Shown: piece after piece, positions 10,388 to 40,642 of the stretch
Layout: each line of letters opens with the position of its first letter
Numbering within the stretch: position 1 is the first letter of the stretch
From: a virus
DNA length: 40,843 nucleotides
IMG/VR virus record: IMGVR_UViG_3300042113_000212
Span: 1-40,843 of that record
Strand: one strand, 5' to 3'
Program-made: the position numbers and the translations under genes
Notes under the pieces: model-generated
What the model saw: the letters and a program-made list of their open reading frames with translations, nothing else
What the model was told of the DNA's origin: nothing
Databases searched by the model: none

Positions 10388-10624
10388 TCATGATTTTCTA
10401 GGTAAGCATAATGCTATTTCATTTTCTTCATAAGAGTTTTTAGGATGAAGATCAACTTCATCAAAATCGCCCTCCCATGTTTTTACATCTGCTTTGGGAT
10501 TGGGAGCTATTTTAACTAGATAGACTTTTTCCAATTCATCATATCCAGTTTCGTATCCATCCACAACCACACGCATATTTTGATCTTTTTGTGATAAAAT
10601 TTCTATTAACTCTTTAACTTTCAT
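10388..10624 (-). CDS. conserved small protein
   Basis: 78 residues. MKVKELIEILSQKDQNMRVVVDGYETGYDELE matches a common small phage/bacterial protein pattern (KELIExL...D..VVVDGYE.G.DD). No activity known. It overlaps the upstream RNA ligase stop by 11 bases, so it is probably translated with it. (Motif spans residues 1-32; only its key positions matter.). Confidence 0.6.
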   Translation of the reverse strand: MKVKELIEILSQKDQNMRVVVDGYETGYDELEKVYLVKIAPNPKADVKTWEGDFDEVDLHPKNSYEENEIALCLPRKS

Positions 10625-11693
10625 ACTTTTGGTTTATCAGTTTAATCCACTGTTCTTTGTTAATAATCTTACCATCAAGAATTGAAAAAGCAAACGAAGA
10701 ATTTTCTTGGAAGTTTCTCTTAATCATTTCAGCTTGTTCTTTTCTCGTCTCTACTTTTCTAATATCGTGCAATACTTCTAGGATATGATCAATATATTTT
10801 TTTGATTTTTCTCCTGCTTCGCAAATCTTCTCAATCTCATCTTTTAATTGAATGGCTATCTCATAATCAAACTCCGTTTCGATTAATTTATAGAAATCAC
10901 TACAAGATGGCATTTCCTTATCTACATAAAATTCGATTAAATTTTTAGTAGAACTTAATTGAGATTTAATTTTATGTAGAAGAAGATAACGATCAGACTT
11001 GGTTTTTTTGAGTATCTGCCCATTATTACCGTAAATTACAATTCCTTCCCCTTTTTTCCATTGATTAACCGATTCGATCATAGAATAAAGTGAATTAAAC
11101 CGATATCGAATAGGTCTTCCTATTTTCCAATCAGTAGCAAATATATCTAAATCGTTTTGTAATACATAAGAATAATCATCATGTTTTATCACACCCGTAA
11201 GCCAAATTGTTGGTTCTTCTGCTTCTCTTTCAACTATAATGTTTTTAGGAGAATACCATTCGCAAACAATTGAATATTTCTCGTTATTCAAAATATTATT
11301 ATCAAAAATTAAAGGATATTTTTGCTTCAAAAAAGAAATTTCATCACCATTATCTAATATGGTTGCATCATGAGTTCCTCTTGTTCTAACAATTAATTCT
11401 CCTTTAAATTTTGAAACAATCAGAGTCGATCCATCTAGTTTGTGAACAAACTCAATATCAGAATCAGTATCGAGTGGTTCAAAATCTAATTGTTCTCCGA
11501 GATTTGTGAATTTTTTCCATGAGGCACTAACCAATTTTCCATCTTTAGTCCAAATAGAAGAACGGAATATTTTATTCTCATCATTCCATTTAATATCATG
11601 TTTAATAGGAAATATTAGTACACACTCAGTATTTCCAATAACACAATTTCTGATACAAAATTCTTCCGAAGAAGGAAAATTAAACGCCTTCAT
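10614..11693 (-). CDS. RNA ligase, T4 Rnl1-like
   Basis: 359 residues. Motif I is KLDGST at 85-90 with the adenylated Lys85. Following it are VRTRG (motif Ia-like), CEWYSP (about 145, motif III region), EGIVIYG (about 217, motif IV) and KTKSDRYLLLH (about 228-238, motif V). This is a complete ATP-dependent RNA ligase nucleotidyltransferase core with a helical C-terminal domain, most like T4 RnlA-type enzymes that repair cut tRNA anticodon loops. Partner 5' kinase and phosphatase candidates lie at 1146-2240. A GIY-YIG gene overlaps its start by 14 bases. Confidence 0.85.
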   Translation of the reverse strand: MKAFNFPSSEEFCIRNCVIGNTECVLIFPIKHDIKWNDENKIFRSSIWTKDGKLVSASWKKFTNLGEQLDFEPLDTDSDIEFVHKLDGSTLIVSKFKGELIVRTRGTHDATILDNGDEISFLKQKYPLIFDNNILNNEKYSIVCEWYSPKNIIVEREAEEPTIWLTGVIKHDDYSYVLQNDLDIFATDWKIGRPIRYRFNSLYSMIESVNQWKKGEGIVIYGNNGQILKKTKSDRYLLLHKIKSQLSSTKNLIEFYVDKEMPSCSDFYKLIETEFDYEIAIQLKDEIEKICEAGEKSKKYIDHILEVLHDIRKVETRKEQAEMIKRNFQENSSFAFSILDGKIINKEQWIKLINQKYES

Positions 11694-20767: not shown

Positions 20768-21130
20768 TTATAAAGTATCTAGCTTTGAATCTCCAATTGC
20801 CCAATTATAAACCCAATCCTGAATATCAGAAAAATTTGGATTTGATTCATTAGTAACATCAAAAAGAAATTCAACATCATCGGAATCTTTCTTATATGCT
20901 TTAGCCGAATTTATTTCAACGCTTAATACTGAATCATCATAAAAACCGCTCTTCATTTTCTTTTCATAACTAACTTCGTATGAATAAGGTAATCCAGTTG
21001 GATCGTTAAATATCACAGTATCATCAACGTGAAAAACTTTACTATCATCATCACGATTATGATCATCGAATTCTTCTTTCAATATTTTTGAATATGCTTG
21101 TTCTAATAAAATATCATCTTTTTTTCTCAT
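20768..21130 (-). CDS. leader-family protein (MRKKDDILLEQAYSKILKE)
   Basis: 120 residues. The first 20 carry the shared leader with Glu10 and an ILKE at 16-19. The mature part is acidic, beta-rich (FHVDDTVIFNDPTGLPYSYE) and unlike the other members. The leader is closest to that of 38757-39131 (both AYSxILKEE). Function unknown; proposed capsid cargo. Confidence 0.7.
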   Translation of the reverse strand: MRKKDDILLEQAYSKILKEEFDDHNRDDDSKVFHVDDTVIFNDPTGLPYSYEVSYEKKMKSGFYDDSVLSVEINSAKAYKKDSDDVEFLFDVTNESNPNFSDIQDWVYNWAIGDSKLDTL

Positions 21131-21512: not shown

Positions 21513-22523
21513 TTAGTCTTTATAGTTTCTGTTGATGAGTTTGAATCCCAATGGACGACGAGAAGAATAACTTCTTGGATAAGATGATGGTCTTATTACT
21601 ATTCCCTCTCCTTCCAACCCACTTGGGTATTTTTGTTTGTCTGCTAATTCTTGTAATTTTTGCAGAGGATTTACCCAAAGTTTTATTTGTTCTTCCAAAC
21701 TCAACTTACATACTAGCGGAACTACATCGCAATGTAAAGAATTTTCGCAAAATTCTTTCATCTCTTCGTATGTCATGTATTTTTTGTCTTGGTTAATTTG
21801 GAATACAAAAATCTTAACGTCTTCTAATTTAAGTTGATTTTTTTGGATTCCATTACCCGCTAATTCGCCTTGTATAACTCCCGTCCAGCCTTGAGGAATA
21901 GTAAGTTTTCTTGCCGCTTTCCAAAATGTATTGTTTTCCGTTTCTTTCTTGGAAAGATTTCTAGTGCAAACTTGGGTGAGTTCTCCATTCTCAACAATAA
22001 GTGTAATTGAGCTACCATCCAACTTTTGAGTTACTGTGATATGAGAATCGTGATTAAGAACCTTTTCAACTAGATTTGGATCATTCAATCCATTATCTTC
22101 ATCAGTTTTTGAGATGATATTTGTGGGAAAATCTCCTAATGTTTCACCAGAAAGATTAGCAGGGATTTCTTTTATGTATTTTTGAATTCCAAGTATTTCT
22201 GTTACATCATCACCAACATCTAGAGATTCAAATTGTAAAGGAAATTCAATCATTGGAATAACCAATCCTGAACTATACTCACCACGTAGTTTTATGTTTT
22301 TAAGTCTAATAGGCTTATCTGGATTCTTTTGATCTACCAAAAATTCAGACCATTCGCAACGAGGAACAATAGTATCAATTGTAATAAAAACAACCTTATC
22401 CCCTTCTTTGTGGATTCCTTTTTTCACAACTGTTTGCCAACCAAGAACTTCTGCAATTTCTAATGAATCAGCATTAGGGTGAACTTTTATATTTTTTATG
22501 ACTTCTATCGATGCAAGTTTCAT
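21513..22523 (-). CDS. RNA ligase with N-terminal OB-like domain
   Basis: 336 residues. Residues 1-115 form an OB-like module (HPNADSLEIAEVLGWQTVV, GDKVVFITIDTIVP) as in the Rnl5/DRB0094-type ligases. The catalytic core has motif I KLDGSS (167-172, Lys167), VCTRNL (motif Ia), VIQGELAG (motif III region), EGIVIRP (motif IV) and LGFKLINRNY (motif V). It joins nicked RNA or RNA ends using ATP. It is a second, differently built ligase besides that at 10614-11693. Its promoter has the Bacteroidota form and its leader is very short. Confidence 0.88.
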   Translation of the reverse strand: MKLASIEVIKNIKVHPNADSLEIAEVLGWQTVVKKGIHKEGDKVVFITIDTIVPRCEWSEFLVDQKNPDKPIRLKNIKLRGEYSSGLVIPMIEFPLQFESLDVGDDVTEILGIQKYIKEIPANLSGETLGDFPTNIISKTDEDNGLNDPNLVEKVLNHDSHITVTQKLDGSSITLIVENGELTQVCTRNLSKKETENNTFWKAARKLTIPQGWTGVIQGELAGNGIQKNQLKLEDVKIFVFQINQDKKYMTYEEMKEFCENSLHCDVVPLVCKLSLEEQIKLWVNPLQKLQELADKQKYPSGLEGEGIVIRPSSYPRSYSSRRPLGFKLINRNYKD

Positions 22524-23023: not shown

Positions 23024-23689
23024 TCAAGATAAAGAATCTAATTTTTTAACCAAATTTGAATCTGTTACTTGTGTATATTGATAACCGCCCTTTTTGGGAT
23101 CGGATACACCAGATCTTCTAAACCAACCATTATTATATTTTTGATAATAATCAAAATCATTAGGATCTCCTGTTACATCACTACCATCTATTTGTTTTGA
23201 TGCTTTTCCACTTGGTTTGCTTGAAGTAGAAGTTGATTGTGTTACAACATTTGTAGACTTGGCTAAATTTCCAGTCAACATAGATTCAACATCATTATAC
23301 AAAGATGTTGATACTTGTGCAGGAGTGATACCTTTAGAATTTAAACCTAATTTATTTAAATCATTTACAATATCAAGTGCTAGTTTTTCTATTTTTGTTT
23401 TTTGTGTTTTTAAGACGCTTGTTATTTTAGCAATATTCCCTGCTGCGGCTACTTCTCTTCTTTTTTCGGCTCCAATTTGTTGTAATCCACTTGATATATT
23501 TTTTGATAATGGACTAGCAAGTTTCCCCAATGCACTAGCGGCAGCACCAGCCAATCTTTTTTTAGGTTGCAATCCACCGATAAATCCAGCAGTTTTTGCG
23601 GCAGCACGATCAAGTATTCCTTCTTCCAATGGGTTTGGATGAATTATTTTATTGTATGCTTCATTTATTGCTATATCGTCTTTTCTCAT
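23024..23689 (-). CDS. leader-family protein, Ala/Ser-rich
   Basis: 221 residues. The N-terminus MRKDDIAINEAYNKIIHPNP is a diverged leader, followed by PLEEG, a second possible protease site. Residues 27-85 are Ala/Gly/Lys-rich and helical (AGAAASALGKLASPLSK), 95-140 form a helix-rich segment, 145-170 a Ser/Thr linker, and the end is aromatic (YYQKYNNGWFRRSG). It could be a DNA- or membrane-active cargo protein; nothing specific is recognised. Confidence 0.65.
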   Translation of the reverse strand: MRKDDIAINEAYNKIIHPNPLEEGILDRAAAKTAGFIGGLQPKKRLAGAAASALGKLASPLSKNISSGLQQIGAEKRREVAAAGNIAKITSVLKTQKTKIEKLALDIVNDLNKLGLNSKGITPAQVSTSLYNDVESMLTGNLAKSTNVVTQSTSTSSKPSGKASKQIDGSDVTGDPNDFDYYQKYNNGWFRRSGVSDPKKGGYQYTQVTDSNLVKKLDSLS

Positions 23690-26598: not shown

Positions 26599-28314
26599 TC
26601 AACGACTGATTTCTTCCCAATCCATAGAAGCAAACATACTAGATCCATTTACGGTATCTGTTGCAGCAACCAAGGTTAATTCAAAAGGAGTTTTTGTTAA
26701 ATTGTTTCGTTCTAATTGAAACTTAAACAAAGCTTCTTTAAGAATATCCAAATTTGGTGATGCTTGATTGGAAGCATTTAAAAATCCACTTGCTAAAATT
26801 CTTCCACCTGTATAACTAGTTCCGGTTATATTATAATTAACTGCGCTATCATTACCAGCACTAATCCAATTTCCTCCTGTTGTGACTCCGCTTGCTCTAA
26901 TCTGCCAGTTATAGTTTATGCCATTTCCTTGTCCAAGTATTGATAAAGCGGTTAAAATAACAATTCCATCTAATCTATCTGGAGAATCTTTTAATTTAAT
27001 TGTGATAATTGGATAAAAAGTACCAGCTACAGAAAACGTTCTTGGTGCAGTTATTGGAATCGATACTGCTTGTTGTAAACCTCTTAATTCATAACCACCT
27101 TCAGAAATAACAGTAGAACATATTTGTTTTAAAGTTTTAGTTCCACCTGTTGTAGCTGCTTTATTAATAATCTCATATCTTAAAGGTAAAGAAGCGGTAG
27201 TAATATAAGTTGAATCTATAATATTAGCATGATGGAATGAGTGGCAAACAATAAACTGTCCGTTAATACAAAAACCAACTCTTACAGTTCCTACTCCTAA
27301 CCATTCAATATCCACCCAAAGAATTTGAGCTTTGGTTATATCTAAAACTAGACCAGAAGAACCAGTTCCATCTAGCTTATCTCCATTCCAATTAGATCGA
27401 GAAACTACACTATCTACAATAGAACCAGATACAATTGATCTTTTAACTATACTAATATTGCCATCATCTAGCTGAAAGTATATTCCATTCTGATCTCCAA
27501 AATATCCTACTCTCTGTCTTAAATTGGTAGCAGAAGACGCCATGACAAATGTATTCATGACAAGCAAGGACTTGCCGGGTTGATAGGAAAATACCTTTGT
27601 CGTTTCTCTTATCGCACTTGCTCCTGCCGTATTAGTAACATTTAAATCCATTAATCCCTGCGATGCATTGAATGAAACCGAACCTCCATTTGCGGATAGA
27701 GTAGACCACAAATTATTATCCCTGTAACGATGTGAAGAATCGAACAATGTCATAGGGGAAGACACTCTCATTCTACCAAATGCATCCAGCTGAGTTGGTT
27801 GTGGTAATGTAGTAACTTGAGTAACAGGATTTAAAACACTGATTGAAGTTACTGGATTTAAAACAGTTACAGATCCAGATATTGGAAATGTATTAGATGC
27901 CTTTACTGTAACAATATTTGTTATGTCTACAGAAGATATAGGATTAGTATTATAAACTTTAAGTGCGCTTAAAGGTGCATATACCGATGCAAAATTTCCC
28001 AATCTATCACCAATAGTTACATCATCTTCGGTAGATTCTAGATCTTGACTTATAACTCTTAATGCCCCTAAACCTATTCCAACTGGAACTACATCTGCTT
28101 GTAAACCACTATCAGGATCTTGTATATGAACAGATCCTATATCTAAATTACCAGCGGATAAACTAATTTTAATATCATCGAAATTAGTTATATAAGAAGC
28201 TTGTGCAAAAAGTTCTCTTTCCGCATTATTTTCTACATGAATCCAAGAATTATTGTAACCTATGTTACAATTTAAAGGAACGGCTGAAACATCATTTTTT
28301 AAAGCGTATGGCAT
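26599..28314 (-). CDS. virion structural protein
   Basis: 571 residues, Ser/Thr/Val/Gly-rich with few charges. Residues ~95-180 contain repeated VDITNIVTV/SVTVLNPVTS strands, followed by DAFGRMRVSSPMTLFDSSHR (about 196-215) and DNNLWSTL. That FGRxRVSxPxTLFDS module marks large structural proteins of T4-type and related marine phages. The C-terminal half is a beta-sandwich-like domain (ILWVDIEWLGVGTVRVGFCI). It is probably an exterior tail or capsid component. A TGTAAGTA octamer is 8 bases upstream. Confidence 0.75.
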   Translation of the reverse strand: MPYALKNDVSAVPLNCNIGYNNSWIHVENNAERELFAQASYITNFDDIKISLSAGNLDIGSVHIQDPDSGLQADVVPVGIGLGALRVISQDLESTEDDVTIGDRLGNFASVYAPLSALKVYNTNPISSVDITNIVTVKASNTFPISGSVTVLNPVTSISVLNPVTQVTTLPQPTQLDAFGRMRVSSPMTLFDSSHRYRDNNLWSTLSANGGSVSFNASQGLMDLNVTNTAGASAIRETTKVFSYQPGKSLLVMNTFVMASSATNLRQRVGYFGDQNGIYFQLDDGNISIVKRSIVSGSIVDSVVSRSNWNGDKLDGTGSSGLVLDITKAQILWVDIEWLGVGTVRVGFCINGQFIVCHSFHHANIIDSTYITTASLPLRYEIINKAATTGGTKTLKQICSTVISEGGYELRGLQQAVSIPITAPRTFSVAGTFYPIITIKLKDSPDRLDGIVILTALSILGQGNGINYNWQIRASGVTTGGNWISAGNDSAVNYNITGTSYTGGRILASGFLNASNQASPNLDILKEALFKFQLERNNLTKTPFELTLVAATDTVNGSSMFASMDWEEISR

Positions 28315-29812: not shown

Positions 29813-31012
29813 TTAATGTATTAATAAAAATGTAAATCTAACATCTCTTCTTTGGGCGGGTGAATCTGTATCACCAGATGGCATAGTTATGGTATCAAAT
29901 TCTAATGGTTCACCTTCGGTCTTTGGAAGTTCGTCCGTAAATTTCATTCTATCTACGCTTAATTTTCCTCTCAAATCAGCATATTTTGAATTTGGATGTG
30001 TGTTATAAAAATCAACTATTGCTTTTCTTAAACCTTCTCTTGCTTCTGGACTAGCAAATTTGGTTATACCAGTTTTTTCATCTTTTTCAAAACGTCCTGT
30101 TCTTGTTGGAACCAAAAATTGTTTAAATACATCTTTAGGTACAGTTATTTGAGTTTTTGTTTTAGACATATCACCAACTTCATCTCTTTCTTTTTTAGTA
30201 GCACCACTACTAAATGTCATTGTCATTCCTTTTTCCTTACCCAATTTAACATATTTTCCAATTTTAGTATATATATAAGAATTTACATTGTAACCTTTTG
30301 CTTTTAATTGTTTTGTTACATTATCTGCAATATTAAAATAAACCTCACTGAAAAGATCACCCGCATCGTTCCAACGAATTTTCAATTCTTTATTATCTTG
30401 TTGAGCCTCAAAAGCATATCTTTCTGCTTCCATAAATGCTTGTTTTTCATATGTATCTGGGTCACTCATTAACCATTGCAAACGATTAATTAACTTTATA
30501 TTTTTACCATCATTCATTATGTAAAACCCTTGGAGTGCATAACAATTAGCTATACAATCTTGAGCACCTGGACAGGTATTCATAACATAAAAATTTTTAT
30601 TTTCTTCATCCCAAATGACTGCTCTCAATGCAGGTATTCCGGTATTGATAGTCATTTTATCTTCGTCCGTACTATGTAAAGATTTTTCTCCTTTATCAAA
30701 TATAGTTTTTGGTCTTTGTGTTATTTGCTTTTTAAATTGTTCTATATTAGCCCTACCTTCTTCATTGGTTGGTATATTTCCTCTACTAACTCTAGCAAAA
30801 TTTGCATCTGCTGATGGTCTATCTTTTGTTATTTTCAAACGATCCAATTCTGCGTTTAACGCATCAGCAACAGATTCTGGAGTATAACAAACTTTTTTAA
30901 CATCACTAAAACGATCCCAATTTACTTCTAAAACTAATTTTTTATTAAGATTGTTATTTTTTGATATACCATCATATAATTGCTCCAATAATATTTGATC
31001 TTTACTTCTCAT
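29813..31012 (-). CDS. leader-family protein with Gp88-like Cys domain
   Basis: 399 residues. Leader MRSKDQILLEQLYDGISK with Glu10; the second candidate site is LVLE at 26-29. Residues ~120-270 match the phage Gp88 family: NTCPGAQDCIANCYALQGFY (145-164, Cys147, Cys153, Cys157), IRWNDAGDLFSE (212-223) and YIYTKIGK (about 244-251). The three cysteines recall a metal or Fe-S site distantly like radical enzymes. The role of Gp88 is unknown. The C-terminus (PAQRRDVRFTFLLIH) is beta-like. A late octamer lies 9 bases upstream. Confidence 0.75.
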   Translation of the reverse strand: MRSKDQILLEQLYDGISKNNNLNKKLVLEVNWDRFSDVKKVCYTPESVADALNAELDRLKITKDRPSADANFARVSRGNIPTNEEGRANIEQFKKQITQRPKTIFDKGEKSLHSTDEDKMTINTGIPALRAVIWDEENKNFYVMNTCPGAQDCIANCYALQGFYIMNDGKNIKLINRLQWLMSDPDTYEKQAFMEAERYAFEAQQDNKELKIRWNDAGDLFSEVYFNIADNVTKQLKAKGYNVNSYIYTKIGKYVKLGKEKGMTMTFSSGATKKERDEVGDMSKTKTQITVPKDVFKQFLVPTRTGRFEKDEKTGITKFASPEAREGLRKAIVDFYNTHPNSKYADLRGKLSVDRMKFTDELPKTEGEPLEFDTITMPSGDTDSPAQRRDVRFTFLLIH

Positions 31013-31021
31013 ATTTTTTTA

Positions 31022-31029
31022 TATTTATT
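31022..31029 (-). promoter_or_regulatory. late-type octamer AATAAATA
   Basis: Minus strand, 9 bases before ATG 31012, overlapping the stop of 31025-31270. Confidence 0.5.
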
Positions 31030-31270
31030 TTTTTAAATTTAAAATGTCGGTTAATTTTTTATTTAATTTCATAGAATTTGAAACACTTAAATGAATTAAA
31101 ATACCACCAAATGAAAATCGAATAATTGTATCTTCTAAAACTTCACCAGTTTCATCCAAAACTTCTTCAATAGAAAAAGAAGTTGTGACGAAACCTTCTC
31201 CCTTTTTTCTTCTTTTTCGGGTTTCTTCAGACTTTAATCTTTTGTTCCAATTTGTTTTTTTAGGCGACAT
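31025..31270 (-). CDS. small basic protein, unknown
   Basis: 81 residues. N-terminus is strongly basic (NWNKRLKSEETRKRRKKGEG), followed by beta strands (DTIIRFSFGGILIHLSVSN). It could bind nucleic acid. An AATAAGTA octamer is 16 bases upstream. Confidence 0.5.
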   Translation of the reverse strand: MSPKKTNWNKRLKSEETRKRRKKGEGFVTTSFSIEEVLDETGEVLEDTIIRFSFGGILIHLSVSNSMKLNKKLTDILNLKK

Positions 31271-31310: not shown

Positions 31311-31967
31311 TTAATTAACCTTATAGAAGTCTTCCCAAACCGACTCACTAAGACCGAAATCAATTAATACTACTGTTGGTACACCTTCTCTAAGAACTTC
31401 ACCATAGGAATTTACCCTCCCGAAGTCACCCGGATACTTCATTCCAAAATTTATAATCATATCCGTGAGTGATGTTAAAAACTCATTGTCGTTTACTTTC
31501 TGGCTAAATTCATCATGTAATTCTTTTAATTGTTCTGGTTTTAAATATTTTCTTCTGGAACTATTATTCAATGTTTCCATTACACGAAGAATATCTTGAA
31601 CTTCATTTAAACTCATTCCAGTTAATTGTTTAAATCTATTTGGTGTTAATTTTTTAGCCAATTCCATTTCAACCCAAAAGTGATCATCATTAGTATTAAA
31701 AATTTTAGCAACTATATCAGACATTCTTTGCAGTCCCCAATCAGATTCTATTGAATTTTGACCAATTCCCTTTTTATTCTTGGCTATCTTTAAAACTTTT
31801 TCTTCATCAACCTTATAAACAACTCTGGCACTACCAGAAGAGATTTTCTGCAATCTTTCATTTGCATATTTTAATTTACCATTATATGATTTAATGTTAT
31901 TAAATTCATCAAAAGAAAAACTTACAGGATAAGCCATTTCTTTTATATATTGTTTAAAAGATTTCAT
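31311..31967 (-). CDS. kinase-like protein with T4-type capsid-targeting N-terminus
   Basis: 218 residues. MKSFKQYIKEM resembles T4 internal-protein targeting sequences (MKTYQEFIAEA), with Glu10 as the expected cleavage point. The body looks like a divergent protein-kinase fold: ISSGSARVVYKV (42-53, glycine loop), VLKIAK (58-63), WVEMELA (98-104), PGDFGRVNSYGE (179-190, catalytic-loop-like Asp181/Asn186) and VLIDFGLSE (200-208, DFG at 203-205). The usual HRD is absent, so activity is uncertain. Last gene of a three-gene coupled operon. Confidence 0.7.
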   Translation of the reverse strand: MKSFKQYIKEMAYPVSFSFDEFNNIKSYNGKLKYANERLQKISSGSARVVYKVDEEKVLKIAKNKKGIGQNSIESDWGLQRMSDIVAKIFNTNDDHFWVEMELAKKLTPNRFKQLTGMSLNEVQDILRVMETLNNSSRRKYLKPEQLKELHDEFSQKVNDNEFLTSLTDMIINFGMKYPGDFGRVNSYGEVLREGVPTVVLIDFGLSESVWEDFYKVN

Positions 31968-33310
31968 ATAGAAGTTTTTGGTTTATTTCTGTTATAAAAA
32001 TAATAATATATTTGTATTATGGGAAACATCTCTCTCAATAATTCATCATGAACATTATCGTTTTCACTATCGGATGTATAACTCAAAATAAGTTTATTTG
32101 AAAGCATATTTATTTCATTTAATTTATCGGTTAAAACTGAATTATTTGAAACAGCATTGAAAAATTTTGATATATCGCTATTTTTATTATTCAATTCTTT
32201 TTTTATTTCTTCTTTATTAAGTTGATTGAAATATAATTTATCTTCAAATATATTCCCTAATGCATCAACTGGTATTTTAACATTTACGGTTGAATTAAAA
32301 AATATTTTACGACTTCTTATTTGTGAACTATATGATATACTCGTAAAAGTGTCAGGTATTGTTGCTCTTCTTAAAAATGCTTTAAATTTATCGGTTGTTT
32401 CTCTACTTTTATCGACAAATTCATTTTCTCTATCTTCTAATTGTTCATCTTCATTTCTATCCAAATTTGGGTATTCGGAATAATCCATGTTATATAAACC
32501 TTTTAGATAAACAAATCCACTTTTATTTTTTACTTTTGAATTGAAATTTTTAGTAGTCCAATCAGTAGCAAAGTTTTTAAATTTTTCTATTTTTGCGCCA
32601 TATTTATTTGGTCCAACTGCATATGCCAACTCTTGTTCTTTATTAATCATCGGTCTTAATAAGATTCTAGATAATGGTTTTTTTAATGCTATCTTACCAT
32701 TTTCTCTCAATTCAGATTTAGGAACCAAATATATTACAATAGAACCCTGTGAAACATCTGCTTTTAATTTACAGTTCATTTCTCCTCCTTCCAAATCCAT
32801 ACAAGATGTCCAACTTCTATCAGTGGATATTCCGTATATATCATAAGGATGACGAGAAACAACAACAACCATTTCGTTTGATGTCACATTTTTTATTGGA
32901 TCTGCTTTATATAATTCCACTTCTTCGGTGGTTTTTACAGTTCCTCCCTTTTTTGTTATCAATTCTTTTTCTTGTCCAAATTCGGTTAATAACTTTCCAA
33001 TCTTATATACATTTTTATCATTCTTTTTATAGCATATACCTGTTATATAATCGGAAATGTTTTTAATATAAAAATTATAATTCCCCAAAAATTCATTTAT
33101 TTTATAAAATGTGCTGGTTGGATCATCTTTGAGTTTAGAATAATCCTTTTCTATATCAAAATCAAAATCATATATAAGTCTATCATTCTTACCAAAAACA
33201 TCATTTATTTGTTTTTTTATATATGCCCCGCTTTTTTTTCGGGTCATTTTCTTTTCTTTAGCAATAGAAAGAGAAATAGCTTCTAGAAAATATTTTTTAA
33301 AACAAATCAT
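31964..33310 (-). CDS. targeting-sequence protein with STxRxWTSCM domain
   Basis: 448 residues from ATG 33310, overlapping the upstream stop as ATGA; a longer frame from 33337 lies inside that gene. MICFKKYFLEAIS fits the T4-type targeting pattern. Residues ~145-260 contain RHPYDIYGISTDRSWTSCMD (153-172), GSIVIYLVPKSEL and KPLSRILLRPM. The same invariant W-x-x-C-M layout occurs in phage hypothetical proteins and resembles the PcfJ-type core (C in a ST/S context, then a strand). Function unknown. Confidence 0.65.
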   Translation of the reverse strand: MICFKKYFLEAISLSIAKEKKMTRKKSGAYIKKQINDVFGKNDRLIYDFDFDIEKDYSKLKDDPTSTFYKINEFLGNYNFYIKNISDYITGICYKKNDKNVYKIGKLLTEFGQEKELITKKGGTVKTTEEVELYKADPIKNVTSNEMVVVVSRHPYDIYGISTDRSWTSCMDLEGGEMNCKLKADVSQGSIVIYLVPKSELRENGKIALKKPLSRILLRPMINKEQELAYAVGPNKYGAKIEKFKNFATDWTTKNFNSKVKNKSGFVYLKGLYNMDYSEYPNLDRNEDEQLEDRENEFVDKSRETTDKFKAFLRRATIPDTFTSISYSSQIRSRKIFFNSTVNVKIPVDALGNIFEDKLYFNQLNKEEIKKELNNKNSDISKFFNAVSNNSVLTDKLNEINMLSNKLILSYTSDSENDNVHDELLREMFPIIQIYYYFYNRNKPKTSI

Positions 33311-33429
33311 TTTTTCTTTTTCTTTTTTGGTACACAATTAGGAACCATCTTTTTTCCCTTTTTCTTCATTCCAACTTGTTTGTAGTTTTTCCAACATGCT
33401 TCGGTAAAAAATTTTTTAAATGTTTTCAT
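33307..33429 (-). CDS. 40-residue basic protein with capsid-targeting N-terminus
   Basis: MKTFKKFFTEA at residues 1-11 is the best match in the window to T4 internal-protein targeting sequences. After it come WKNYKQVGMKKKGKKMVPNC (13-32) and a poly-Lys end. The GMKxKGxKxVPNCVP motif recurs at the ends of structural and hypothetical proteins of T4-type marine phages. It may be a tiny DNA-binding internal protein. ATGA overlap with the next gene; octamer AATAAATA 2 bases upstream of ATG. Confidence 0.7.
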   Translation of the reverse strand: MKTFKKFFTEACWKNYKQVGMKKKGKKMVPNCVPKKKKKK

Positions 33430-33431
33430 AA

Positions 33432-33439
33432 TATTTATT
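33432..33439 (-). promoter_or_regulatory. late-type octamer AATAAATA
   Basis: Minus strand, 2 bases before ATG 33429; it heads the three-gene operon of T4-type targeting proteins. Confidence 0.5.
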
Positions 33440-33448
33440 TATTCTAAA

Positions 33449-33844
33449 TTATTCAGAACTCCATATACTATGATAATCTTCGCTGTACTCGTCATCAAAA
33501 TATATATTTGACATTTTGTTTTCTATAGCCAAATTTTTTAATTCTCTTACTTGTTTTTGATTAGGTTTCATCTTATTATTATGACAATATAATTCGCTTC
33601 CAATATATGTCAATCTCATCCAACCTTTTATAAAAAGTAAATCATATACCTGATTTGCAAACATCATATCTTTTGTCGGCATATTGTATCTATCGTGTAA
33701 AATTTTTTTGCCAGATGCAAAATGACCCTCTCCTTTATTTGAAAATATTTCCCCTGATGGATTCATCCATGCATACAAAGAACCAGATTCATTTAGAATA
33801 TCTAAATAAAGATTTTCCAGTAGTATTTGATCTTTGTTTTTCAT
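33449..33844 (-). CDS. leader-family protein, unknown body
   Basis: 131 residues. Leader MKNKDQILLENLYLDILNE with Glu10 and LNE at 17-19. The body has AWMNPSGEIFSNKGEGHFAS and KGWMRLTYIGSELYCHNN, a W-x-P-x-G...GWxR pattern that recurs in small phage proteins. Last of four leader-family genes read one after another from 37592, 1-4 bases apart or overlapping. Confidence 0.7.
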   Translation of the reverse strand: MKNKDQILLENLYLDILNESGSLYAWMNPSGEIFSNKGEGHFASGKKILHDRYNMPTKDMMFANQVYDLLFIKGWMRLTYIGSELYCHNNKMKPNQKQVRELKNLAIENKMSNIYFDDEYSEDYHSIWSSE

Positions 33845-33845
33845 A

Positions 33846-34367
33846 TTAGAATTCTCTCATATTCCCTTCTTCATCAAAAATATTTTCATAATCCAAATAC
33901 ATACCTCCTATATGAAATGAGCTTGGAAGTATATTATGTTCTTCATTTTTTTTCCAATTATATCCACCCCCCGTTTCGTAAGCATGGGGAGGAAGACCAA
34001 TTTCAATTACTTCTTTTATTTTATGATTAACAACATAAAAATCCGTATGACATTCATATTCCTTATACATTGTAAATGATTCCCAATCAATCAAATCGCT
34101 TGGTCTTAATTGATCATATTTGGATGCCATTGCATCTGCAACTCGATCACATATTCCCCCATAACCATATTCGTGTGAATATCCCTCCTCATCCTGTTCC
34201 CAATTATTATATACTTCTTCTGCCGCATCTGCAAGTTGAGGGAGAATTGATTTTAAAAAATTATTTATTCTTTTATAACTTTCTTCTGCCATTTTATCGT
34301 CATCCTCAGATTCAGAATACATTTCAGAATATAATTTTTCCAATAATATTTGGTCTTTGTTTCTCAT
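33846..34367 (-). CDS. leader-family protein, Cys/His-containing body
   Basis: 173 residues. Leader MRNKDQILLEKLYSEMYSE. The body includes YGYGGICDRVADAMASKYD (Cys at about 78 opening a helix), then ECHTDFYVVNHKIKEVIEIG and LPPHAYETGGGYNWKK. A Cys at the start of a helix followed by a His before a strand resembles papain-like/transglutaminase-like folds, but the spacing is not convincing enough to call an enzyme. ATGA overlap with the upstream gene. Confidence 0.65.
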   Translation of the reverse strand: MRNKDQILLEKLYSEMYSESEDDDKMAEESYKRINNFLKSILPQLADAAEEVYNNWEQDEEGYSHEYGYGGICDRVADAMASKYDQLRPSDLIDWESFTMYKEYECHTDFYVVNHKIKEVIEIGLPPHAYETGGGYNWKKNEEHNILPSSFHIGGMYLDYENIFDEEGNMREF

Positions 34368-36691
34368 TTTAATTTTGCTTTTTTTAGTTTTGTATAATAC
34401 TTAGGATTTTCTGCGAGATGATCCATTGCAATTCTTTTGGCTTTTTTCATGTTTACTCCATGTTCTGTTTCAACTTTCTTCCCCATCTTTATTTGTTTCT
34501 TAATAGTGGAAACTGGAACCTTGTCTTTCTTTGCAATATCTTCCACATCCATTCCAGCAGACATTCTTTTATATTTTTCTAAAAAGTATTGTTCAAAATT
34601 CATTTCCATCTGACCACCAATGTTATCATAAAGAAACTTTCTTACTAAATTTTTATCATAAGGAGAAAAAATAAAATTTGAATCTAGTTCTAGATCATTT
34701 TTCACGATATATTTTATCTTTGGTATGATAATACTTTTTATAAATGAAAATTCATCATTTGTAATTTCATTGTCTTTATTAGACTTAATAATTTTTTCAA
34801 ATTTATCTTTATCATCTTCATCTAGATTTCTAGTTATGTCAAAATTCCAAATCGAAACCACTGATATTTTTTTATTACCATCTTTAGGATAAAGATCTAA
34901 TGACGCATGCGAAATATCTTCTTTTTTAAACCTATTTAAAATATCAAGAATATCTTCTTCTTTAAAAGAAACATCATTAAAATTTAACTTTTTCGCACTT
35001 TCAACATTTGGTATTAATATTGAATCGCAAAATTTTTTAAATTTATCAATCAATTCATTATATTTTGAAACTAACAAATCCAAAGATGATTTTATTTTTT
35101 TATAATCGTATGAATTTTTTTCATCATATTCTAAATTTAATATTGCGTAAATTTTATCACTACTTCGGTCGCCAGTAATACTAAAAACATCTGGAATATC
35201 TAAATAATTAAAAAGAAAATATTTAAAAAAATCAATTGTATATTGAATATATGGATAATGTAGTTTTTCATCTTCGTTCAAATCTCTATGTCTCGTATAT
35301 CCTAATGCAAAATAAGAATGGTTTAATATTTTTTGAAATTTTATTAATGGGTTTTCAAAAGAAGGAAATGTCACCGATGCATCATTGTCTAGATTATAAT
35401 TAATCGTTAATTTATCTCCATATTCTTCTTTTATTCCAGAAAATAAACTTTCATATTCGTCACTTATCCATCCTTCTTTAGTTATTGCAAGTTTAAATTT
35501 TTTTATAAATTCTTCTCTATCAAAATTTTTATTTAAATTAAAAACATCTTCACATTTTCTATAAAACGCATCTAGTCCTTCGTCATTAAAACCAAACTGA
35601 TTGTCTGAAGTTTTTGAATCACAATTTATGAAAAACGATTCACTATTTTCAGAAGTAGATATTTGTATCTCATCTGGATAAATATCAAACCGATTAAACA
35701 TATTTATTAGGTGTTCTGCATCACTATAACTACCTTGATTTTCTTCTATAATAGATTTTATATTAGGAATATCTGAAAATTCATTATAATTTAATTTTAA
35801 ACCAAAATCTTCATTTATATATACACCTTCATCATAATCATTTAAAAAAATAGAATAAATTGGAAATTCATATTCATTGAGTATTTTTTCAAATTGTGCA
35901 AATGAAACATTATTGTCAGATATTTTTTCTAATATATCTCGACTGTTTGGTATTTCTTCTGAATGTTGTCTAACATATTGTTCAAAATCTACGTTTGTAA
36001 AATCGTGTGTTGAATCATACTCGGTTTTAAAAATGAAACAATTTTTAGTTATCAATATATCCGCTATATATTTGTAATATTCTTGTTTTGGTTTTGAATT
36101 TTTTTTACCTTTACATTGATACCAAACACCATCATCTGGACTTATTGCCATAGTTATAAAAGGTTCTATGGTTTGTGTTTCTTTGAAATATTTTCTTAAT
36201 GAATATAAAGTATCTGCTTTACCAGTACGTCCACAATGTCCCATAGCATCACTTTCTTCACAATTGTTTGTACTTTCCAAATCAACCCAATAAAAACCAT
36301 CTTTATATTGTTTTATAATTTTATTTTTTTCATTACCTTCCAAAGTATTAGTTTGTAAGTTTTCATGATACTTTGTTTGCGCTTCAACTGCTTGATCCCA
36401 ATTAAATTGTTTTAAATTTATATTGGGTACATTTCTAACCCAATCCATAATACCAGTCATATTTGTTTCCAAGTTCGTACGAATCCAATTTATTTTATTC
36501 GTTGATGTTTGGAATCCTTTCATGTTTTTAATTTTATCCGCAAACCAAAGTGAATATTTGTCATTAAAATTATGAAGATAATCAGCAATATCTTGGGGTA
36601 TACCAAAAGATAACATCTTTTGTCGATGGTCTTTTTCTAAAAGTAAATTATTATATATAGATTCAAGTAATATTTGGTCTTTGTCACGCAT
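34364..36691 (-). CDS. large leader-family protein, PcfJ-like core and DUF5661-like end
   Basis: 775 residues from ATG 36691 (MRDKDQILLESIYNNLLLE); an ORF extension to 36841 lies inside the upstream gene. Residues ~130-215 have a PcfJ-like core: FYWVDLES, SDAMGHCGRTGKADTLYSLR (147-166), PFITMAIS and WYQCKGKKNSKPKQEYYKYI. The central ~480 residues are acidic, Asp/Glu/Asn/Lys-rich and unrecognised. The last ~60 residues hold DVEDIAKKDKVPVSTIKKQI and EHGVNMKKAKRIAMDHLAEN, similar to the DUF5661 family found at phage protein ends. Largest protein of the proposed cargo set. Confidence 0.7.
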   Translation of the reverse strand: MRDKDQILLESIYNNLLLEKDHRQKMLSFGIPQDIADYLHNFNDKYSLWFADKIKNMKGFQTSTNKINWIRTNLETNMTGIMDWVRNVPNINLKQFNWDQAVEAQTKYHENLQTNTLEGNEKNKIIKQYKDGFYWVDLESTNNCEESDAMGHCGRTGKADTLYSLRKYFKETQTIEPFITMAISPDDGVWYQCKGKKNSKPKQEYYKYIADILITKNCFIFKTEYDSTHDFTNVDFEQYVRQHSEEIPNSRDILEKISDNNVSFAQFEKILNEYEFPIYSIFLNDYDEGVYINEDFGLKLNYNEFSDIPNIKSIIEENQGSYSDAEHLINMFNRFDIYPDEIQISTSENSESFFINCDSKTSDNQFGFNDEGLDAFYRKCEDVFNLNKNFDREEFIKKFKLAITKEGWISDEYESLFSGIKEEYGDKLTINYNLDNDASVTFPSFENPLIKFQKILNHSYFALGYTRHRDLNEDEKLHYPYIQYTIDFFKYFLFNYLDIPDVFSITGDRSSDKIYAILNLEYDEKNSYDYKKIKSSLDLLVSKYNELIDKFKKFCDSILIPNVESAKKLNFNDVSFKEEDILDILNRFKKEDISHASLDLYPKDGNKKISVVSIWNFDITRNLDEDDKDKFEKIIKSNKDNEITNDEFSFIKSIIIPKIKYIVKNDLELDSNFIFSPYDKNLVRKFLYDNIGGQMEMNFEQYFLEKYKRMSAGMDVEDIAKKDKVPVSTIKKQIKMGKKVETEHGVNMKKAKRIAMDHLAENPKYYTKLKKAKLK

Positions 36692-36695
36692 TATA

Positions 36696-37592
36696 TTATT
36701 TATTTGATATATCTGTCCAATATGACATTCTATCTTCTTTAGTTGCTGATTTTCCGGCTTTTTGATATCTTTCTTCTTGTTGAAGAATACCAGAAACATC
36801 CAACATTCTACTATGAGTACTTTTTTCTGAAGGAGTTTCAACCGCAGATATAAACTTTAAGTTTGGATTTATTTTTTTATTAAAATCATAGAAATTTTTA
36901 ATAACATTACCTAATATTCCTATACACTCATTAAATGCTTTCTGATCAAAAGGATAAGCAAGACTAGATTGTTTACCCATTTGATTTAACCAGAATTTTG
37001 TTGGAACTTGACCTTGGCTAGTAAAAAGACCCGGATTGTCATAAAGAGGGAAATCATTCCAATGATCCTCTGGAACAATCCCCAGAGGTTCCGATATAGT
37101 AACCCAATATATTTTACTATTCTGTCCTCTTAACATATTATAACACTGATAATCTTTAGATTTTGTTGTTTCTCCCCATCTTTTACTAGCAGCACATGAA
37201 ACAAATATAACTTTGTCTTTCCCTTCTGGTATTTTAAATTTTTGAACCATAGAAAACCAATCTGTTATAATTGGATTGTTTAAAAGTTTTAATGTTTCGC
37301 CCGGTGTATAAGCACACAAATTCGGATTAGTTTGTGGAGTTTCTTTAAGTCTAGTTCTTAAATGAAAATCTCTTATAACTATCCAATCATCTTCACTCAT
37401 ATAATTTTTAGCCGACTTTCCACCTTTGGCTGTTCCGAGTTGTGATCTTTCAACATCAGAAAGTTTAGCTAAAATATTTTTTTTCTCTTCTTCACTAAAA
37501 TCCCCAATAGATCGTAGAGGCACTTGTGCTTTCTCACTTAAAAGAATGCTTTCGTAAATATTTTCTAATAATATTTGGTCTTTGTTTTTCAT
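36696..37592 (-). CDS. leader-family protein with ArcS/DUF5591-like domain
   Basis: 298 residues. Leader MKNKDQILLENIYESILLSE, Glu10 and LSE at 18-20. Residues ~125-200 have VIFVSCAASKRWGETTKSKD (128-147), YNMLRG and WVTISEPLGIVPEDHWNDFP (163-182), then DNPG. In archaeosine synthase and DUF5591 proteins the corresponding order is CSxxKPYSxS, then ISxPLGxVPRELE, then YDxP. It may therefore act on a 7-deazaguanine base in tRNA or DNA. This is a motif-level inference; the active Lys of the PCSxxKPYS signature is retained as Lys137. First gene of a four-gene leader operon. Confidence 0.65.
   Translation of the reverse strand: MKNKDQILLENIYESILLSEKAQVPLRSIGDFSEEEKKNILAKLSDVERSQLGTAKGGKSAKNYMSEDDWIVIRDFHLRTRLKETPQTNPNLCAYTPGETLKLLNNPIITDWFSMVQKFKIPEGKDKVIFVSCAASKRWGETTKSKDYQCYNMLRGQNSKIYWVTISEPLGIVPEDHWNDFPLYDNPGLFTSQGQVPTKFWLNQMGKQSSLAYPFDQKAFNECIGILGNVIKNFYDFNKKINPNLKFISAVETPSEKSTHSRMLDVSGILQQEERYQKAGKSATKEDRMSYWTDISNK
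36697..36704 (-). promoter_or_regulatory. late-type octamer AATAAATA
   Basis: Minus strand, 5 bases before ATG 36691, inside the last codons of the upstream leader gene; an internal late promoter for the 775-residue protein. Confidence 0.5.
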
Positions 37593-37649: not shown

Positions 37650-38144
37650 ATGAATATCTTCATTCTTGATAAAGACCCAATTAAAGCTGCTCAACAAAAT
37701 TGTGATAAACACGTTATAAAAATGGTTGTTGAACTATACCAGCAAATGGGGAGTGCTGTTATCAGACATGGCGCATTACCAGAAGATATGCCTCTAACCG
37801 CAAAAGGAACACCATTAAAGGGTGGACATAAAAATCATCCATGTACTCGTTGGGTGGGAGATACAAAATCTAATTATGAATGGGCGGCTATACATGCATT
37901 AGAACTATGCAATCAATATACATATAGATATGGTAAAATTCATAGTTGCCAAAAAGGAATTGAACATCTTTGTAAAATGATAGATCTCATTCCAGAAGGA
38001 GAATTAACACCCCATGCCCTTGCAATGCCAGAAGAATACAAAGACGCTGATCCAGTCAAGGCATATCGAACCTATTATATCAAGGACAAAAAAGAATTTT
38101 CCAAGTGGAAAATGGGAAATACTCCCGATTGGTTTATTGTTTAA
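37650..38144 (+). CDS. conserved phage protein (CDKHVxKM family)
   Basis: 164 residues. Starts MNIFILDKDPIKAAQQNCDK then HVIKMVVELYQQMG, followed by KNHPCTRWVGDTKSNYEWAA, ELCNQYTYRYGKIH and a C-terminal DPVKAYRTYYIKDK ... PDWF. This is a frequent phage protein with invariant Cys-Asp-Lys-His and NHP-C-x-W; I do not know a proven activity. It has neither leader nor a clear octamer. The 3' end overlaps the convergent gene by 11 bases. Confidence 0.7.
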   Translation: MNIFILDKDPIKAAQQNCDKHVIKMVVELYQQMGSAVIRHGALPEDMPLTAKGTPLKGGHKNHPCTRWVGDTKSNYEWAAIHALELCNQYTYRYGKIHSCQKGIEHLCKMIDLIPEGELTPHALAMPEEYKDADPVKAYRTYYIKDKKEFSKWKMGNTPDWFIV

Positions 38145-38715
38145 ATTTATCTGTCAAACTTAGTAAGAAATTGTTTATTATAGATAAAAGTTTAAAATAT
38201 CTATCGAATTGTTCTTCTGCAAATATATCCATTTCGGTTAACTCTAATGAAACCCCAATCCATTCGTTACCAGTACCTATTCTCTCAATTTCGTCAGGTT
38301 CTGCTCGTTCGTCACCAGAAGCATAAACATCAAACATTAAACCGTTTATATTTTTTTCATTAATAAAATTACTAATTGTGCTTTTGATATCATCAATCTG
38401 TGATTCTAATGACATATCTATGTTTATTTTTACATCCGATAAAAATTCTACAGAAGGAAACATAATTATCATTTTTTCATTTTCTACATTGTAATCAAGA
38501 CTAGATGTAAATTGAGCGGTTTTTAAATTGCTCATTCTTTCTTTTGCTTCATCACTAAACCAATGAAATTTCATTTCTTCTGGATCAACACCATCGAGTG
38601 GTTCATTACCTTGATTATCAGGAAAATAACCATGGCGATCACCACCATCAATATTTTCTTTTAAAATTTTCAATGTATATAAATTCTCCAATATAATTTG
38701 ATCTTTGTTTCTCAT
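38134..38715 (-). CDS. leader-family protein, unknown body
   Basis: 193 residues. Leader MRNKDQIILENLYTLKILKE, with ILE at 8-10 and LKE at 18-20. The body is acidic: PEEMKFHWFSDEAKERMSNL, then alternating strands and helices (INEKNINGLMFDVYASGDER). No catalytic motif recognised. Divergent from the leader gene at 38757. Confidence 0.65.
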   Translation of the reverse strand: MRNKDQIILENLYTLKILKENIDGGDRHGYFPDNQGNEPLDGVDPEEMKFHWFSDEAKERMSNLKTAQFTSSLDYNVENEKMIIMFPSVEFLSDVKINIDMSLESQIDDIKSTISNFINEKNINGLMFDVYASGDERAEPDEIERIGTGNEWIGVSLELTEMDIFAEEQFDRYFKLLSIINNFLLSLTDKFKQ

Positions 38716-38756: not shown

Positions 38757-39131
38757 ATGAAGAACAAAGATACTTTGATGCTGGCAGAAGCATATTCCAA
38801 TATTTTAAAAGAAGAAATTGCAGATTTTAACAATAATGGTCCAACATGGGACATGAATATGAGTCAAGAAAGAACTAGAACAAAAAGAATAGATTCCGAT
38901 GAAGAAGACAGGGAAGAAGAGAATGATAAGTTTTCACAATTGGAAATAGGATTGGGAAGACCAAATCCATCGGTAGAACAGGGAGATTTATTGCAGGGAT
39001 TATCAGAGAATGATGCCAGAGAACTATTAAACCATCTAAATCAAAAGGGAGAAGAAAACGAAGAGAATTGGGTATTAAAGGATAATCTTATTCTACAACT
39101 TTTTGATCTTTTGAGAAACCCAAATATTTAA
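38757..39131 (+). CDS. leader-family protein, acidic body
   Basis: 124 residues. Leader MKNKDTLMLAEAYSNILKEE, a divergent form ending ILKE. The body is Asp/Glu/Asn-rich and probably disordered at first (RIDSDEEDREEENDKFSQLE), then helical. No domain recognised. One of two leader genes on the plus strand, showing that the leader is not tied to one operon or strand. Confidence 0.65.
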   Translation: MKNKDTLMLAEAYSNILKEEIADFNNNGPTWDMNMSQERTRTKRIDSDEEDREEENDKFSQLEIGLGRPNPSVEQGDLLQGLSENDARELLNHLNQKGEENEENWVLKDNLILQLFDLLRNPNI

Positions 39132-39530: not shown

Positions 39531-39881
39531 ATGGTATGTATGAACTACCTCAAAATAGAAAAAAATAAAAATAACGTAATCAACGGAAAACTCACAAACG
39601 ATAAGGGTTCTTTGAATATTCCCATTACCTTAATTGGAAGTGGAATCTTGAATATTTCAAAAGACAAAGAATTGAATTTGGATCCAGAAAAAATAAACGT
39701 ATTCAAAAATAATAAATTTGAATATAGTATGAAAAACATCAAATTGAGCAATTTCTTCGGAAAGAGTGTTATTGAAGGTGTTAATGATAGTGATTCCTTT
39801 TCTGCGGTAATCGTTGATACGAGTGAAATTAAAAATATGTGGACTAATGATTATAATGGAATTTGGAATATTGATGTTTAA
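39531..39881 (+). CDS. small beta-rich protein, unknown
   Basis: 116 residues; MVCMNYLKIEKNKNN, with a second Met at residue 4 as alternative start. Alternating strands (GSLNIPITLIGSGILNIS, FSAVIVDTSEIKNMW) suggest a beta sandwich. No leader and no octamer. Overlaps the convergent metallopeptidase gene by 4 bases. Confidence 0.55.
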   Translation: MVCMNYLKIEKNKNNVINGKLTNDKGSLNIPITLIGSGILNISKDKELNLDPEKINVFKNNKFEYSMKNIKLSNFFGKSVIEGVNDSDSFSAVIVDTSEIKNMWTNDYNGIWNIDV

Positions 39882-40642
39882 ATTTCAATGTATTTATAAG
39901 TTTTAACACTTTCAGAAAAACTCTTAATGTATTCTTGATAAAGATCCATTAAGAGTTTTTCGTTTTTATCAAAACCAAGTCTTTCTAATAAATTCATAAC
40001 AAAATTTTCTATATTTTTGGGATCATTATTGTTTCGATAATTATATTCCAATGCATATGCTTCCAATTCTGCGGGGTGCATAAAATATTCTTTAAATTGT
40101 TTCTTCCAGTATTCTATAGTTTTTTCTCCACCTAATGTTAATGTTGGAGGTATCAATTGTTTATCTTCGTATATTTGTCTGACATGTACCATTTCATGAA
40201 ATAGAACATATTTTATTTCATTTCTAAATTCGTCTATGTTTTTTACAATGTCATTTATTGTTATTATAATCCTTACAAGTGATTGTTGATTATTATAAAA
40301 AGCACCTAGGTTGAAATTTTGATTTAATTTTGGATCAACTTGAATATAAACTTCTATTTTTTGAAGATCAAATGGAATATCGGGAATCTTATTTAAAAAA
40401 TTATTATTTATAAAATTGTTTAAATCATTTTGTATCTTTGATTTATATTGTCTATATTTAACAGAATCTTCAAAATTTTTTACGAGCAAGTCTATCTCTT
40501 TTGATTTACTAAAAAGTCCCGATTTATTCATACCCTTTTCTAAAAGAATATAGAAATCATCTAGAAAACTTTTTTTTACAGATTCAGATAAAACATATCT
40601 TTGATAAAGATTCTCCAATAATATTTGATCTTTGCTTCGCAT
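39878..40642 (-). CDS. leader-family zinc metallopeptidase (HExxH)
   Basis: 254 residues. Leader MRSKDQILLENLYQRYVLSE, Glu10 and LSE at 18-20. The zinc site is LFHEMVH (147-153): His149, Glu150, His153. HPAELEAYALEY (189-200) supplies a plausible third ligand, Glu192 or Glu194, as in gluzincins. An upstream helix-strand region (residues 95-130) provides the usual edge strand (SLVRIIITIN). It would cleave proteins or peptides. If carried in the capsid it would act in the host at once after injection. An exact-type octamer is upstream. Confidence 0.78.
   Translation of the reverse strand: MRSKDQILLENLYQRYVLSESVKKSFLDDFYILLEKGMNKSGLFSKSKEIDLLVKNFEDSVKYRQYKSKIQNDLNNFINNNFLNKIPDIPFDLQKIEVYIQVDPKLNQNFNLGAFYNNQQSLVRIIITINDIVKNIDEFRNEIKYVLFHEMVHVRQIYEDKQLIPPTLTLGGEKTIEYWKKQFKEYFMHPAELEAYALEYNYRNNNDPKNIENFVMNLLERLGFDKNEKLLMDLYQEYIKSFSESVKTYKYIEI

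Follow-up and report, generated by a model that had tools for sequence, protein, structure and literature searches.

Most genes of large phages have no known role, and the T4 proteins Ip1–3 are anti-defence proteins that act at infection. The N termini in the T4 record are MKTYQEFIAEAS for IPIII, MKTYQEFIAEAR for IPII and MKTFKEFTSTTTPVSTITEA for IPI. T4 has both a short (IPIII) and a long (IPI) leader form, and MKTYQEFIAEA is the start of IPII and IPIII only, that of IPI being MKTFKEFTSTTT. The cleavage motif of T4 gp21 is L/I-X-E. In the T4 leader, targeting depends on residues 4 and 7 and processing on residues 8 and 10 (PMC9026906), and a change at residue 10 can block processing while still allowing targeting (PMC9026906). 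The propeptide of T4 Alt has 7 residues (PMC9026906).

We analysed 40,843 nucleotides of viral DNA (IMG/VR record IMGVR_UViG_3300042113_000212), referred to here as the window, from a distant relative of T4 that infects bacteria. The N termini of three coupled genes in the window are, in our view, probably short capsid-targeting propeptides of the T4 internal-protein type, which would bind the core and be cleaved after Glu by a gp21-type protease, with delivery of the proteins alongside the DNA.

Three coupled genes with short leaders

The operon and its leaders comprise the following features.

33307–33429, minus strand: gene 1, 40 aa, short leader MKTFKKFFTE and a 30-aa basic body, ACWKNYKQVGMKKKGKKMVPNCVPKKKKKK
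33400–33429, minus strand: gene 1 leader codons 1–10, MKTFKKFFTE
31964–33310, minus strand: gene 2, 448 aa, leader MICFKKYFLE and a body with a HPYDIYGISTDRSWTSCM motif; start ATG at 33310
33281–33310, minus strand: gene 2 leader codons, MICFKKYFLE, apparently chimeric in comparison with the relative G007
31311–31967, minus strand: gene 3, 218 aa, leader MKSFKQYIKE and a kinase-like body
31938–31967, minus strand: gene 3 leader codons, MKSFKQYIKE, with MKNKDQILLENLYTE in their place in the relative G013
33307–33310, minus strand: ATGA stop–start overlap of genes 1 and 2, exactly 4 nt
31964–31967, minus strand: ATGA stop–start overlap of genes 2 and 3, exactly 4 nt
33432–33443, minus strand: two overlapping AATAAATA late-promoter-like octamers 5′ of gene 1

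As the original prediction held, the genes are coupled through ATGA overlaps and share one late-octamer-like site: the AATAAATA pair lies 10–14 nt 5′ of the start of gene 1, and none precedes genes 2 and 3. Late-octamer-like sites were found at operon heads in the window. NATAAATA is rarer there than expected from composition (23 sites versus 41), and 6 of the 23 lie no more than 60 nt upstream of a leader-bearing gene. Before gp21, gp22 and gp23 of relatives, the late octamer was inconsistent, so that the octamers lend the leader reading little weight.

The three proteins start MKTFKKFFTEA, MICFKKYFLEA and MKSFKQYIKEM. Residue 4 is Phe in all three, residue 7 is Phe, Tyr and Tyr, residue 8 is Phe, Phe and Ile, and residue 10 is always Glu; the proposed spacing (aromatic residues 4 and 7, Glu10) thus holds in every gene, and the targeting positions agree with those of T4 IPII and IPIII. 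The residue two before Glu10 (P3) is Phe in two leaders and Ile in one, and only MKSFKQYIKE contains a strict L/I-X-E site; in relatives and distant homologues, P3 is mostly Leu or Ile. The likeness had been drawn to the start of IPI–III and Alt together; it stands for IPII and IPIII but not for IPI, which has the longer form, or for Alt, with its 7-residue propeptide. None of the three genes carries the other leader of the window, M..KDQILLE, which starts seven genes exactly and two as variants, again in agreement with the prediction.

The leaders span only ten residues and the finding was chosen by eye, so that a chance resemblance to T4 had to be weighed. Inside proteins, the pattern [FYW]xx[FYW][ILFVM]xE has a frequency of 1.8e-4 per position, which gives about 0.013 expected occurrences at the N termini of the 72 window genes, compared with three seen, all adjacent (the automatic gene caller scored two of these, having dropped the 40-aa gene). 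A fourth short-leader gene (MICFKKYFLLE in G007) belongs to the same operon in the relatives G007 and G006. Given these counts and the fourth gene, we rejected chance, the probability of which we consider negligible.

Alignment with the T4 internal proteins, a proposed check, bore out part of the likeness. MKTFKKFFTE gave the best score against the IPIII leader among 1,915 N termini from the window and relatives, whereas 6% of these N termini score as high as MICFKKYFLE, which is unremarkable alone. Because the IPIII score fails to single out MICFKKYFLE, the case for the 448-aa gene rests on its orthologues, of which that in G007 starts MKTFKKYFLE, and on its operon context.

A leaderless 81-aa gene (MSPKKTNWNKR.., 31025–31270) separates this operon from a gene of the GP88 family; the same neighbourhood, with a similar gene, is kept in G004, G007, L047 and L082. 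Elsewhere, the window encodes a T4-like RNA ligase/tail-fibre attachment protein (10614–11693, phrog_562), a second RNA ligase (21513–22523, phrog_968), a polynucleotide-kinase-like ATPase (1146–1553) and, downstream of the leader gene cluster, a virion structural protein (26599–28314, phrog_1645, E 7e-141).

The long leader form

The long leader has the form M[KR]xKDQILLExxYxxhhxE and is found on at least nine other genes of the window, the two variants lying at 20768–21130 and 38757–39131.

33449–33844, minus strand: 131 aa, long leader MKNKDQILLENLYLDILNE, 19 nt upstream of gene 1
33846–34367, minus strand: 173 aa, long leader MRNKDQILLEKLYSEMYSE
34364–36691, minus strand: 775 aa, long leader MRDKDQILLESIYNNLLLE, C-terminal DUF5661
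36696–37592, minus strand: 298 aa, long leader MKNKDQILLENIYESILLSE
38134–38715, minus strand: 193 aa, long leader MRNKDQIILENLYTLKILKE, with TATAAATA 18 nt upstream
39878–40642, minus strand: 254 aa, long leader MRSKDQILLENLYQRYVLSE, HExxH motif (HEMVHVRQ)
29813–31012, minus strand: 399 aa, GP88 family, long leader MRSKDQILLEQLY
20768–21130, minus strand: 120 aa, long leader variant MRKKDDILLEQAYSKILKE
38757–39131, plus strand: 124 aa, long leader variant MKNKDTLMLAEAYSNILKE

A degenerate long leader, MRKDDIAINEAYNKI, starts a 221-aa protein (23024–23689) with a homologue in G001. The 254-aa protein (39878–40642) has a weak match to Peptidase_M91, below the Pfam cut-off, and is a possible packaged metalloprotease.

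The M..KDQILLE leader occurs in 105 stretches of IMG/VR. Among 110 non-redundant long leaders, 106 have Tyr at residue 13, and residues 16 and 17 are mostly Ile/Val and Leu/Ile/Val. Residues 13–19 hold the T4 core Y-x-x-h-h-x-E with the spacing of T4 residues 4, 7, 8 and 10. A hydrophobic-x-Glu ends at residues 17–24 in 82 of the 110, compared with 13–24% of equal segments further in. The long leader thus has two candidate sites, Glu10 (LLE) and approximately Glu18–20, the second being absent in about a quarter; because Glu10 also lies in an LLE site, the long leader may be cut twice. Both leader forms have a nearly invariant Glu10. Leu9 of the long leader is encoded by all six leucine codons, which points to selection at the protein level.

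The original prediction envisaged two classes of leader kept in separate operons, one T4-like and one new, and neither part held. Short and long leaders occur on adjacent genes, often with an ATGA overlap, and alternate from gene to gene along one coupled operon in each of L014, L042, G007, L047 and L082; in the window itself, a short-leader and a long-leader gene lie 19 nt apart on the same strand. Nor does the long leader look like a new class, since it contains the Y-x-x-h-h-x-E core and orthologues of one cargo carry either form. With mixed operons, a shared core, either class on one cargo and both forms present in T4, the short and long leaders look like variants of one interchangeable system that extends the T4 internal-protein mechanism. 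The same exchange on orthologous cargos, together with the mixed operons and the common aromatic-x-x-hydrophobic-hydrophobic-x-Glu core, makes it most likely that the long leader on at least nine window genes does the same job as the short leaders.

Leader exchange and the cargo proteins

An all-against-all comparison of 13,698 ORFs revealed cargos with orthologues behind unrelated leaders. In six such pairs, the leaders share 0–2 identical residues, the bodies are 73–93% identical and homology begins directly after xE. The kinase-like body starts MAYPV behind MKSFKQYIKE in the window and behind MKNKDQILLENLYTE in G013; in G004, its orthologue has the leader MATFSEYLFE. The 40-aa peptide follows MKTFKKFFTE in the window (then ACWKN) and MNIKSIIENVLTE in G006 (then ACWKNYKQ), and its body is kept in relatives behind other leaders. 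An ASCH-like cargo (a reading from sequence, with no family match) continues SNDVS after either MTFKEYFLE or MKNKDQIILENLYESI, and a DUF5661 cargo continues KYKRM after either MNFDYMVE or NISFKQYFLE; two further pairs make up the six. Such natural exchange on one cargo gives indirect support to the idea that a leader would suffice to carry a protein into the prohead. As in T4, the leaders, of about 10–19 residues, are common to otherwise unrelated proteins. For most leader-bearing proteins, neither Pfam nor PHROGs pointed to a function.

Similar starts on adjacent genes might instead be leftovers of gene duplication, with the three proteins being diverged paralogues. We rejected this explanation as extremely improbable, as the bodies of the three genes belong to separate families or match no family, and in their orthologues unrelated leaders join the body at a sharp boundary. 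Exchangeable targeting leaders remain the reading that we prefer.

In G007 and G006, the 40-aa and 448-aa genes are separated by an extra 158-aa gene (MICFKKYFLLESPEY.. in G007), which is missing in the window. The 5′ part of the window 448-aa leader resembles the G007 158-aa gene and its 3′ part the G007 448-aa gene, with the join within AAAAAATATTTTCT. Such a chimera is the expected trace of a crossover between adjacent leaders, which it suggests took place, and the shared leader DNA probably also acts as a seam for the gain and loss of cargo genes.

One further feature lies inside a gene.

34577–34609, minus strand: internal leader-like segment MEMNFEQYFLE then KYKRM, before the DUF5661 domain of the 775-aa gene

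The NFEQYFLE-KYKRM segment (DUF5661 end, 34364–34609) is the N-terminal leader of stand-alone homologues in relatives, and cleavage of the 775-aa protein may yield two separately packaged pieces. In L251, L267 and L276, the kinase-like domain stands behind another domain and an [ILV]xE lies right where the two meet, as in a polyprotein-like cargo. Small Lys/Cys-rich bodies (KRDRCLKKADSVYGKK.. and GLHGWFSRNKGKGW..) occur behind various leaders, and also fused to larger proteins, in L014 (4862–5289), L042 (1862–2349) and L079; phrog_727 matches both the KRDRCLKKADSVYGKK.. body and the body of the 40-aa gene.

The AF2 model of the 218-aa protein has a pLDDT of 89, and its top Foldseek matches are APH(2″) and methylthioribose kinase (E 9e-5 to 1e-3; TM-score only about 0.36). 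Across 40 sequences of this family, G45, R48, K60, E74, E102, D203 and G205 are invariant and S46 and D181 reach at least 90%; the Gly-loop, Lys, Glu and DxG residues of kinases are present. The invariant residues and the Foldseek matches, with their low TM-scores, support a kinase-like fold for this predicted cargo. The 448-aa protein has no Pfam family over the cut-off and no significant fold match. Its family shows the same junction, E then A(I/L), as in the Atu_ph07 homologue (AUZ95153), in which MQYTDLIE precedes ALKPSEYR. Residues 1–9 of the kinase-like model and 1–12 of the 448-aa model mostly have pLDDT below 50 and the domains that follow are confident, as would be expected for a removable tag. 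By analogy, the cargos would likely act against host defences or in host takeover.

Head genes of relatives, distant phages and known systems

Our search for head genes did not find gp21, gp22 or gp23 in the window's own 40.8-kb record; the record is a fragment, which accounts for the missing gp21. Five large relatives (170–212-kb records from among those with the M..KDQILLE leader) encode a Peptidase_S77 protease of the gp21 type (E 5e-29 to 8e-32), a gp22-like scaffold that matches phrog_237 and a Gp23 capsid protein (E < 1e-89), in T4 order. The protease is 35% identical to T4 gp21 and keeps GELNHP and GVSSR, and the gp23 of these uncultured phages is about 40% identical to cyanophage gp23. 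All five gp23 proteins have in their N-terminal region a conserved [IL]xE followed by A/G/S/T, which fits the T4 gp21 motif. The relatives' gp21 and gp22 themselves start leader-like (MSNVYNLLVE then TP; MDISSILKNLDQNVLTE then ETAS), and the G006 leader MNIKSIIENVLTE resembles this gp22 start of the same group. G004, which has all three head genes, is syntenic with the window and shares 17 of its 72 genes, which keep their neighbourhood; three fragmentary relatives (G006–G008) share 42–48 of the 72 at about 85% identity. Judging from these relatives, the window phage would also encode gp21, gp22 and gp23. The predicted T4-type targeting function is supported at the sequence level by this protease, scaffold and [IL]xE-bearing gp23, and by leader swaps, as units, on unrelated proteins.

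Short N-terminal tags can also direct a protein to a membrane or compartment, mark it for degradation or enhance the start of its translation, and the data are those of sequence. We consider such a non-head tag improbable: the spacing fits the T4 targeting residues, the relatives' gp21 and gp22 have leader-like starts and a G006 cargo carries the gp22-like MNIKSIIENVLTE, and the synonymous codon variation argues against a signal in DNA or RNA. Alternatively, the leaders might attach to the scaffold core and draw their proteins into the prohead without being cut, Glu being part of a binding surface. The near-invariance of Glu10 in both forms, although two of the three short leaders lack the strict P3 Leu/Ile, would suit this idea, as would the T4 residue-10 change that blocks processing yet permits targeting (PMC9026906). 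By contrast, homology of swapped cargos begins right after xE, and the same [IL]xE stands at the gp23 N-terminal site and the gp21 start; we regard an uncut leader as unlikely.

In the cleaved-propeptide reading that we favour, the leader would attach to the scaffold core while the prohead is growing and so enclose the protein behind it, and a gp21-type prohead protease would then cut the hydrophobic-x-Glu site behind its Glu. What remains of the three proteins after cleavage (30 residues, rich in Lys and Cys, from gene 1; 438 residues from gene 2; the 208-residue kinase-like body from gene 3) would stay inside the head and pass into the next host together with the DNA. We infer this course of core binding and targeting, incorporation, cleavage after Glu and delivery from T4 (PMC9026906, PMC3012670, PMC12373910).

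Distant kinase-like homologues stand directly behind phage-specific leaders (MKTFRQFFTE-APIPPEWD, MKVKDILKE-APLPDDWD, MKFADFLNE-APLPDNWD and MSIFRSIVENILQE-MTYPSNF); in XacN1 ORF170 (BBA65318), MKQVRLSQFLSE precedes APLPDDWD. Virion proteomes are available for XacN1 (PMC5852040) and for Atu_ph07 (PMC6102473). An [ILVMF]xE ends 1–3 residues before the kinase-like body in 27 of 30 anchored homologues. The leaders of these homologues resemble those of their own neighbours (mean score 14.9) much more than those of other phages (9.05; 0 of 20,000 permutations). In Alishewanella phage Slicko01, eight consecutive genes, including the kinase-like gene, start with MKIDxLYESxLEE or a close variant. Homologues of the window kinase-like or 448-aa protein lie in runs with a shared phage-specific start in Slicko01 (MKIDxLYESxLEE), Dickeya phage JA29 (L004; MxIxVSxSA) and Pseudomonas phage Lu11 (L006; MKIQLAVA), all unlike the window leaders. 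Unlike those of the window, the Lu11 and JA29 junctions have no Glu, which suggests that their leaders serve a protease of another specificity. The records of these three phages carry no packaging-signal annotation for the leader clusters. In a further phage group (L252, L256, L262, L263, L270 and L277), the leader MRAxEFIxE is found on many unrelated genes.

We see it as an even call whether T4-superfamily and jumbo phages share a general tag-and-cargo delivery, in which phage-specific leaders are matched to scaffold and protease, effector bodies from a common pool are exchanged by recombination at the leader junction and inter-domain leaders yield several delivered effectors, the kinase-like protein included. 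A leader grammar combined with a detectable protease would let sequence reveal proteins that are loaded into heads and delivered at infection. With natural leader swaps at hand, the targeting code and the specificity of the protease can be tested directly, and varied leaders could enlarge the tag set for loading chosen proteins into phage heads.

Among systems described in open-licence full texts, the ejection proteins of phiKZ-like phages (SPN3US gp53/gp54 and others) also carry cleaved N-terminal propeptides on head-packaged proteins and show N-terminal identity between otherwise diverged proteins (PMC5694885), but these propeptides mostly exceed 100 residues and are cleaved at AxE rather than L/IxE. 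T4 Alt, an enzyme packaged in the head, has an N-terminal propeptide that can be removed (PMC9026906) and may serve as a model for putative packaged enzymes like the kinase-like protein; however, it is an ADP-ribosyltransferase with a 7-residue propeptide, and we found no sequence relation to the window proteins. The T4 internal proteins IPI–IPIII share with the window a 10-residue leader, aromatic at positions 4 and 7 and with Glu10, on unrelated proteins, a gp21-type protease (here in the window's relatives) and, in IPI, a longer leader form (MKTFKEFTSTTTPVSTITE), and several T-even phages hold different protein sets behind one leader (PMC12373910, PMC3012670). In contrast to T4, the window group mixes leader forms within operons and exchanges them on the same cargo, and its cargos are many more and larger, including the kinase-like, GP88 and HExxH proteins and the 775-aa fusion.
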